From assembly GCA_016795485.1 (NCBI GenBank), contig JAEUHM010000025.1:186001-250000 (forward strand): a stretch of DNA of 64,000 bases, in the 5' to 3' direction. This DNA is from Verrucomicrobiaceae bacterium (lineage in GTDB: Bacteria > Verrucomicrobiota > Verrucomicrobiia > Verrucomicrobiales > Verrucomicrobiaceae). A model generated the notes under the pieces. The model worked only from the letters and a program-made list of their open reading frames with translations. It made no database searches and was not told the origin of the DNA. Shown one piece after another: positions 13,150-14,872 of the stretch; the stretch's first letter is position 1, and every line of letters starts with the position of its first letter. A program made the position numbers and the translations under genes.

Positions 13150-14172
13150 TCAGGCTGCAATTGCTGTGGCTACAACATCATGCTCAAAGGGGCCGGGCAT
13201 TTTTCCAGCGAGGTAGTCTGCGATGATGTCTTCTAACTCAGAGAGACTGCCGACGTGGCAGAAACGATTGCGCAGATGTTTGCCGCCGGGGAGGAACTTG
13301 GTGTAGTTCATGAGGCGGTTCCGCATGGCGCGCATGGTTTGGAACTCATCGCCATAGCGGCGGGAGTTGACCGCGAGTGAGGCGTGTCTGCGGATGAAGC
13401 CGAAGCGCTGCTCTGCTGTAGCGGGCGGTGGCTGCGTGCCGGTGGCGAGATAGGCTTTGGCCTCTGTGAAGATCCAGGGATTCATCATGGCAGCACGGCC
13501 AATCATGACACCACGCACGCTGGTGTTGCGGCGATGACGCTCTACGTCTGCCCCGGTAGCGATGTCGCCATTGCCAATGATGGGCACGCTGGCGGCTGCG
13601 GCGCACTCTGCGATGACATCCCAGTCTGCCTGACCGGAGTAACCCTGTGCTTTGGTCCTGCCGTGAATAGCGATGGCTTGGATGCCTGCGTCTTCGAGGC
13701 GCTTGATGACTTCGAGCGCATTGATGCTGTTCTGGTCCCAACCAATACGCATCTTGGCCGTGACTGGCACGGACACGGCCTTCACGATGCCGGAAGCGAC
13801 TGAGGAAAGCAGCGGGCAGTCCTTCAGCAGGCTGGAGCCGCCGTTCTTGGAAACGACTTTGTTCACGGGGCAGCCGAAGTTGATGTCGATGAAGTCTGGC
13901 TGCTTCCAATCGACGATCTTGCGTGCTGCCTCGCCCATGCGTTGACCATCCGCACCGAACAACTGAACACCGACTGGACGATGGCTGTCCTCAAACTCGG
14001 TGTAGGCCCGTGTACGGTGGTCTGCCTGCAAAATGCCCTCCGCACTGACGAACTCCGTGACCAAAACATCCGCACCAAGCTCCTTGCACAGCCCGCGGAA
14101 GATGTAGTCCGTCACACCCGCCATAGGGGCGAGGTAGAGCGGGAATGCATCGTTTGAGAACCAGGGGAGCAT
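13150..14172 (-). CDS. dusB: tRNA-dihydrouridine synthase
   Basis: This FMN enzyme reduces uridine to dihydrouridine in the D-loop of tRNA. Visible marks are LAPMAGVTDYIFR at the N-terminus, INFGCPVNKV with the catalytic Cys101, VTAKMRIGWD, AIAIHGRTKAQGYSG, IIGNGDI and GVMIGRAAMMNPWIF. The length of 340 residues fits DusB. I chose ATG at 14172; a GTG two codons upstream is also in frame. No Shine-Dalgarno sequence is visible, because the 11-bp repeat array ends only 8 bp upstream of the ATG. The gene follows a small cytochrome gene on the same strand. Confidence 0.93.
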   Translation of the reverse strand: MLPWFSNDAFPLYLAPMAGVTDYIFRGLCKELGADVLVTEFVSAEGILQADHRTRAYTEFEDSHRPVGVQLFGADGQRMGEAARKIVDWKQPDFIDINFGCPVNKVVSKNGGSSLLKDCPLLSSVASGIVKAVSVPVTAKMRIGWDQNSINALEVIKRLEDAGIQAIAIHGRTKAQGYSGQADWDVIAECAAAASVPIIGNGDIATGADVERHRRNTSVRGVMIGRAAMMNPWIFTEAKAYLATGTQPPPATAEQRFGFIRRHASLAVNSRRYGDEFQTMRAMRNRLMNYTKFLPGGKHLRNRFCHVGSLSELEDIIADYLAGKMPGPFEHDVVATAIAA

Positions 14173-14179
14173 TGGCACG

Positions 14180-14268
14180 TTTAGCGGTGGCTGAGCAGTT
14201 GTTTAGCGATGGTTGAGCAGTGGTTTCAACTATGGCTAAGCCATGGCTCAGCTATCGCTCAACTACTG
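14180..14268. repeat. Eight-unit 11-bp degenerate tandem array upstream of dusB
   Basis: Units start at 14180, 14191, 14202, 14213, 14224 (12 bp), 14236, 14247 and 14258. The consensus is YTNARCNRTGG. T at position 2, A at 4, C at 6, purine at 8 and G at 11 are identical or of the same class in all eight units, and T at 9 in seven. Positions 3 and 7 vary but pair one-to-one in every unit (T with G twice, G with A twice, C with T three times, A with C once). Units 1-2 and 3-4 form a 22-bp higher-order repeat. Unit 6 contains the palindrome AGCCATGGCT. The array starts 8 bp upstream of the dusB ATG and ends 10 bp from the stop of the cytochrome gene. Confidence 0.9.
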
Positions 14269-14278
14269 CAGACAAACC

Positions 14279-14872
14279 CTATTTGGCCTGCATTTGAGCC
14301 TGAATCTGGCTGCCTTGGCTCAATGACGTCATGGGCACTTTGTAGACAGTGCCTTCCTCTGACTTGAGCAACACGTTTTCGCCTTCCATCCCCTCAAATG
14401 TAGCACGGAGCTTTTTACCCTGAGCATTCGTCCAGTTCATCACCTGCTTAGGGCGCGCTCTTTTCTCAGAAGCCATCTTTGCCGCGATGTCGATGCCGGG
14501 AAGGTTCGCACCTTCTTCGATCCATGTCCGCAGTGCCATCACCTCTTTCTCGGACAGCTTATCTTTGCCATCTGGAGGCATAGCGCGTTTGCCATCCAGC
14601 ATCGTAACAATCTCCAGCAGGTCACTGGCAGAAGTATTTTTCGGCACAATGATCTCATTCTCACCGATGCTACCTGCCAAACGATTGAGATTGTCGAACA
14701 CATAACCGGCCTTCTCTTTCTTCCGCGACTCGCTGTGGCACTCGTAGCAGTGCTTGCTGAAAATGGGCTTAATGTGCTTATTGAAATCAATCGTCGGGGC
14801 TCCAGGCAGCTGGGCGCGCAATAGGCCAGTGGCTCCAACGAGCACAGCGAGGACAGTGAGAGGCTTGATCAT
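14279..14872 (-). CDS. Planctomycete-type c cytochrome with SHD1-like C-terminal domain
   Basis: The protein is 197 residues. A signal peptide (MIKPLTVLAVLVGATGLLRA) precedes the cytochrome module with CYECH at residues 42-46 and the usual sequence of the PSCyt1 family: IKPIFSKHCYECHS, GGSIGEN-like spacing, RAMPPDG and LRTWIEEGA. From about residue 137 an SHD1-like beta domain follows (NWTNAQGKKLRATFEGMEG and VPMTSLS). It is an exported electron carrier or sensor. I chose the ATG at 14872 over an upstream start at 14908, because the signal peptide begins there. The neighbouring dusB gene has no obvious functional link. Confidence 0.85.
   Translation of the reverse strand: MIKPLTVLAVLVGATGLLRAQLPGAPTIDFNKHIKPIFSKHCYECHSESRKKEKAGYVFDNLNRLAGSIGENEIIVPKNTSASDLLEIVTMLDGKRAMPPDGKDKLSEKEVMALRTWIEEGANLPGIDIAAKMASEKRARPKQVMNWTNAQGKKLRATFEGMEGENVLLKSEEGTVYKVPMTSLSQGSQIQAQMQAK

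Follow-up and report, generated by a model that had tools for sequence, protein, structure and literature searches.

An Inverted Four-plus-Four Repeat Array upstream of dusB in a Verrucomicrobiaceae Genome Is Probably a Gene-less Copy of an IVP-Associated Element

Introduction

The members of the PF05635 family (23S_rRNA_IVP, or S23) are four-helix-bundle proteins, and to our knowledge they have no catalytic activity. The REP sequences of bacteria are recognized as palindromes of 20-40 bp that bear a tag, GTAG or CGTC, on one end. No function for the IVP/S23 proteins is given in the literature cited here. The Coxiella IVS has a 28-bp inverted stem, and tandem GACAGAT heptamers precede its S23 ORF (PMC4990558). 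Avd, a protein of diversity-generating retroelements, is a structural relative of PF05635 (PMC10053308). The cyanobacterial STRRs are degenerate intergenic arrays of 7-bp units that form hairpins between genes, for example hupS and hupL (PMC2670836), and in the literature cited these arrays are left unexplained. In the Beggiatoaceae, intergenic TAACTGA heptamers form short direct repeats which abut many start codons (PMC4679880).

Here, we analyze a repeat array from a Verrucomicrobiaceae bacterium (assembly GCA_016795485.1), situated in a window (the whole stretch of DNA that was analyzed) of 64,000 nucleotides, positions 186,001 to 250,000 of contig JAEUHM010000025.1. A first-pass annotation had described it as eight head-to-tail copies of an 11-bp unit abutting the dusB start codon. 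The definitions of a 23S IVS, of an STRR and of a REP/RAYT element do not fit this copy; it acts like a hairpin of the STRR type that has a protein partner of the IVS type.

Results

Anatomy of the Window Array

Eight 11-bp units were placed, starting at positions 14180, 14191, 14202, 14213, 14225, 14236, 14247 and 14258, with 0, 1, 0, 0, 0, 0, 1 and 2 mismatches, respectively, to the consensus YTNARCNRTGG. TRF independently calls the array (14179-14241 and 14226-14265), arrays of at least two units were absent from 30 random (first-order Markov) windows, and the dimer pattern of the unit has 8 matches in the genome against 0 for its read-backwards control. The array is thus real and its count of eight units stands; it is not, however, the plain head-to-tail array that had been reported. 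An extra T at 14224 divides it into two blocks of four units, the second of which (units 5-8) is the reverse complement of the unit type of the first, shifted in phase, and reads TTGAGCGATAG CTGAGCCATGG CTTAGCCATAG on the minus strand. It is the partial self-complementarity of the unit that allowed both blocks to be fitted by a common consensus. Since units 1-4 face units 5-8, the array is a single hairpin of 4 + 4 units, with the following features:

13150-14172, minus strand: dusB (PF01207), the downstream neighbor, 7 bp from its ATG to the array
14180-14223, plus strand: left arm, four 11-bp units TTTAGCGGTGG CTGAGCAGTTG TTTAGCGATGG TTGAGCAGTGG, with the same unit as the arms around the IVP gene of this genome (G000:C26:7346-7723)
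14224-14229, no strand: hairpin turn, comprising the spacer T (14224) with a few bases after it, from the fold of the plus strand
14225-14268, minus strand: right arm, the left-arm unit inverted; on the minus strand a partial unit, TTGAGCGATAG, CTGAGCCATGG, CTTAGCCATAG and a partial unit, from the fold and a BLAST match
14279-14872, minus strand: gene of a PSCyt1/cytochrome c-domain protein, the upstream neighbor, its stop codon 10 bp from the array

A blind BLAST search with the arm that flanks the IVP gene of this genome gave a match at 14228-14270, and the reversed control gave 0. The hairpin fills nearly the whole gap between the PSCyt1-type gene and dusB, both of which are on the minus strand, and there is no ORF between its arms. 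The distance to the dusB ATG at 14172, previously put at 8 bp, measures 7 bp; translation could alternatively start from a GTG at 14178, and no Shine-Dalgarno sequence is visible, as had been noted. The array folds well as RNA on both strands: the plus strand, which is not the mRNA sense, reaches the lower energy (-59.2 kcal/mol, z = -4.4), and the minus strand, which is, reaches -44.5 kcal/mol (z = -2.3). An Rfam scan of the array region returned zero matches. The earlier view of a non-coding feature at the DNA or RNA level, beyond chance expectation, is supported.

A Dispersed Family of Arrays

The unit recurs elsewhere: in the 6.5-Mb genome of the window a unit dimer with at most three mismatches occurs at 70 places, against 3 in the read-backwards control. 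In relatives the family has the same design with 10-bp units, TTKACNRTKG (type A) and TTKGCNRTKG (type B), or with the 11-bp unit (type C). Related units occur in many genomes of the bacterial family and reach up to 183 matches per genome with controls near zero, and many other members have none. The supposition that the 11-bp period represents a turn of the helix is not supported: at sites where this genome has 11-bp units, those of sister species are 10 bp long, and in other IVP subfamilies the arms have a period of 7-8 bp.

The number of units per arm has a sharp peak at four (69 of 128 arrays), and one long perfect array has 18 units (L172). The side on which a complementary partner arm lies is constant (38 vs 0; shuffled 0), the order of the arms being +- in 24 cases and -+ in 0, and paired arms enclose loops of 3-110 nt; roughly one array in two is a solo arm with no hairpin partner. 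Hairpin surroundings were sampled in this genome over the window and a further 800 kb. Each of the 12 clear paired hairpins, among them that of the window, has co-directional genes on its two sides, with the neighboring stop and start codons in most cases 3-21 bp away, and solo arms are found also in convergent and divergent gaps. The family is accordingly dispersed and intergenic, has an inverted 4 + 4 anatomy, and is placed mostly inside operons.

Its members are present or absent at orthologous sites. The gap between pgk and tpiA contains a hairpin in about 17 genomes and measures 30-45 bp without one in about 25, hairpin remnants persist in G025 and G032, and the label for hairpin presence needs several changes on the tpiA tree. 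No target-site duplication was seen when filled and empty pgk-tpiA gaps were compared by eye, their flanks being too diverged. Nor was any unit-by-unit compensatory pairing found between the arms; precise pairing is therefore not strongly kept, and this speaks for recognition of the unit sequence over a strict upkeep of RNA pairing. The antisense strand folds better in 26 of 30 hairpins, and mismatches between arms have only a weak strand bias (65 vs 89, p = 0.06). The strand preference of folding was assigned to base composition, since gaps free of hairpins lean the same way.

Family hairpins also lie between repeated gene pairs (L006, L009, L013, L017, L018 and L019), where the downstream protein often begins MPFDP; some of these copies have more than 1 kb of similar DNA and are thus duplicates of a larger segment. 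Composite repeats of the same genome (L003, L004, L022, L025, L026 and L168) place TTGAGC arrays beside a GGAGCGCGGACACTCTTGTCCGC hairpin and a GTCTGGCATCTGCTGTCTGGCC-type array, which are perhaps the arms of other IVP families. In G024 the solo four-unit arrays (L236-L257) have common edges, GGGAGCCG..TTTCAG; after many of them comes a different 10-bp array, of the GATCCGACTG type.

An IVP Gene between Inverted Arms

One arm pair of this genome encloses a PF05635 gene (C26:7346-7723, 125 aa, E = 4.9e-30). Inverted flanks were therefore scored around 30 PF05635 genes of nine genomes, with 166 unselected small genes as the control. All 30 IVP genes exceeded the 95th percentile of the control and 28 exceeded the 99th (p = 4e-18); the sole high-scoring control gene is itself an IVP gene. 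The IVP subfamilies differ in their unit, and the similarity of the arms tracks the identity of the proteins (Mantel r = 0.59, 0/2000). In other genomes the flank on one side of a window-type IVP ortholog matches that on the other, and the unit varies between species; every readable ortholog has matching arms, except the divergent ones of G001, G011 and G018, whose flanks are without family units. The related element has no transposase and encodes the PF05635 IVP instead.

Unit Type and the IVP Phylogeny

Both kinds of data were at hand for 12 genomes, for which a tree of pgk + tpiA was used as the species tree. Unit flavor requires 2 changes, the minimum, on the IVP tree, as against 5 on the species tree, which is no better than shuffled labels. 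The sister species G023 and G033 have neighboring genes that are 92-93% identical and IVPs that are only 73% identical, the IVP of G023 sharing 94% identity with its counterpart in G015, which is more distant; between the two sisters, both the IVP arms and the pgk-tpiA hairpin switch flavor with the IVP. In the dispersed arrays the share of A over B follows the flavor of the IVP flanks (p = 0.001), and at least 10 array matches occur in 18 of 25 genomes with the IVP versus 12 of 42 without it (p = 9e-4), relatedness being not fully corrected in either comparison. The flavor of the pgk-tpiA hairpin is mismatched with that of the IVP flanks in G015, G035, G068 and G084, and 13 genomes have arrays and no intact IVP ortholog, two of them retaining IVP fragments. 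Window-type IVP fragments with an in-frame stop lie at G020:C16:79018 and G071:C787:1628, in genomes where arrays are still present.

Other Phyla and Viruses

A blind scan for the 11-bp unit through 257 Gb of named GTDB genomes gave 19 stretches, several of which are probably chance or coding. Only one, L056 of the Tissierellales (Bacillota), has an adjacent IVP gene: here a PF05635 gene (E = 1.3e-35) has 29 copies of TTGARCRRTGG on one side and 5 on the other, as direct and not inverted arrays. The three best matches of the L056 protein among 30 IVPs are exactly the three that have the 11-bp unit. The unit therefore goes with a particular IVP subfamily, within the bacterial family and on one Bacillota contig. 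The L056 protein weakly matches bAvd (PF22296).

The gene beside the L056 element resembles the AlbA_2/divergent-AAA type. Six stretches from the Bacteroidales (L045, L048, L050, L052, L054 and L058) have 4-5 TTGAGCGGTGG units, apparently at one common place, just after an encoded ..WDGGFVFVTFKRP-like motif. Judged by eye, these units are probably coding, and the gene beside the L056 element is possibly related.

The cyanobacterial set comprised 11 annotated plasmid IVP genes, with a cross control. Inverted heptamer-type arms scored above the 99th percentile in 4 of the 11 and above the 95th in one; one gene has long direct arrays on both sides, most others have a short array on one side, and L400 is the sole case with no flanking array. 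The arrays of the Pseudanabaena gene are direct and not inverted. The flanking repeats, such as GGGAGTA and GGGTGTA, resemble published STRRs. Several of these IVP genes are located within operons (cas10-cmr3, cas6-cas4) or separate nrdB from nrdA; in L401, L403 and L409 the PF05635 genes lie within CRISPR cas operons of cyanobacterial plasmids and are flanked by short-repeat arrays.

No relative of the IVP was found in the phage and viral collections. One IMG/VR contig (L398:6331-6429) has an array of nine near-perfect CCACTGCTCAA units next to a probable tRNA gene; it has no IVP gene.

Discussion

Relation to Described Elements

The window family resembles the STRRs in that it consists of dispersed intergenic arrays of short, degenerate, hairpin-capable units, and the PF05635 genes of cyanobacterial plasmids mostly have heptamer arrays on one or both sides. 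It differs in its unit (11 bp in the window and 10 bp in relatives, not 7), in its arms of four units and in its phylum. The 23S rRNA IVSs of Coxiella and Leptospira likewise have an inverted-repeat stem around a PF05635 gene; the window hairpin has terminal inverted repeats, and its full-length relative in the same genome carries such a gene. In contrast to the IVSs, the window copy lies between protein genes and not in rRNA, and many copies of the family have no ORF. The REP/BIME elements with their RAYT are comparable in that they, too, are palindromes scattered through intergenic gaps of a genome that encodes a cognate protein, but the partner here is a four-helix-bundle protein not known to be catalytic, the arrays consist of short units, the RAYT genes of this genome are not flanked by family arrays, and the GTAG/CGTC tag is not part of the unit consensus. 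As in MITEs, copies without an ORF have terminal inverted repeats in common with a gene-carrying element; unlike in MITEs, the related element is without a transposase, and no target-site duplication was seen (pgk-tpiA gaps by eye, flanks diverged). The TAACTGA repeats differ in being 7-bp direct repeats and not hairpin arms.

Origin of the Window Array

We consider it likely that the window array is an ORF-less (MITE-like) copy of the IVP-array element. Because the array family belongs with IVP-carrying elements, its repeats look like parts of a spreading element and not like a switch of dusB. That they abut the dusB start codon would suit a dusB-specific regulatory array, whether operator repeats or a leader attenuator, and dusB was present in all 59 family genomes searched; but neither the array nor a comparable inverted repeat occurs upstream of the gene in any of the 29 relatives whose flanks were read, and the array is therefore not a dusB feature. 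Related arrays, moreover, adjoin pgk-tpiA, dapA-dapB and other genes. By these comparisons of orthologs the link to dusB drawn in the first-pass annotation appears largely refuted, and such a role is very improbable. Mobilization of a REP/BIME element by a RAYT (Y1 transposase, PF01797) is scarcely credible: the genome does have seven genes of the Y1 transposase family, one of them 350-900 bp from arrays (L120), but none of the 7 PF01797 loci is bracketed by an array pair and 6 of the 7 have no array within about 1.5 kb.

Two further explanations dispense with any action of the IVP. An intercistronic RNA element useful to the host, which would process, stabilize or separate cistrons as an RNase III site, stabilizer or attenuator, would account for the good RNA folding and for the restriction of clear hairpins to gaps between co-directional genes, which they nearly fill; the hairpins of cyanobacterial STRRs have been proposed as mRNA stabilizers (PMC2670836). 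We nevertheless regard it as unlikely, given the patchy presence at the same site among close species, the lack of compensatory pairing unit by unit, the solo state of about half of the arrays and the dusB orthologs without an array, and it leaves the link with the IVP unexplained. A neutral repeat produced by slippage or gene conversion and copied by recombination, with the IVP gene as a passenger, would fit the long perfect arrays at some loci (18 units in L172, 29 in L056). It accords poorly with the peak at exactly four units and the fixed polarity of the arms, with the sharp common edges of the solo copies in G024, and with a unit type that follows the IVP tree, including an IVP in another phylum; we think it quite improbable.

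A Possible Mechanism

Under the preferred reading of an IVP-array element, the full-length form encloses a PF05635 gene in two inverted arms, each built of roughly four degenerate 10/11-bp units, and the short form has arms of this type around a short loop, as in the copy that the window holds between the PSCyt1 gene and dusB. Both an action of the IVP on the arrays and the way in which copies move are here inferred. The IVP would recognize the units, either as DNA or as a folded transcript, and would help the repeats to spread or to stay uniform, as the RAYT does for REPs; ORF-less hairpins such as that of the window would be derivatives of the full-length element. Read-through mRNA would form a stem of about 40 bp, a candidate for cutting by RNase III as in the 23S IVSs, and such cutting would allow operons to tolerate insertions within them. 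If dusB is affected at all, this would then be a side effect on the processing of the transcript that it shares with the upstream gene.

Significance

No mention of a link between IVPs and repeat arrays was found in the open-access literature searched, preprints and most subscription journals being outside that scope. The data presented here tie IVP/S23 proteins to STRR-like arrays: each IVP subfamily is accompanied by a specific unit, across phyla as well, and units of the same kind lie dispersed in intergenic gaps as hairpins. A large class of the intergenic repeats of bacteria could find its explanation in this link. We tentatively propose, as a possibility that falls somewhat short of even, that PF05635 (S23/IVP) and arrays of short tandem repeats form one general two-component element of several phyla, in which each IVP subfamily would recognize and spread or homogenize its own unit, leaving behind gene-less hairpins and solo intergenic arrays; the cyanobacterial STRRs, the heptamers of the Coxiella IVS and the window array would all be instances of it. 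If this is true, the IVP family acquires its first proposed function.
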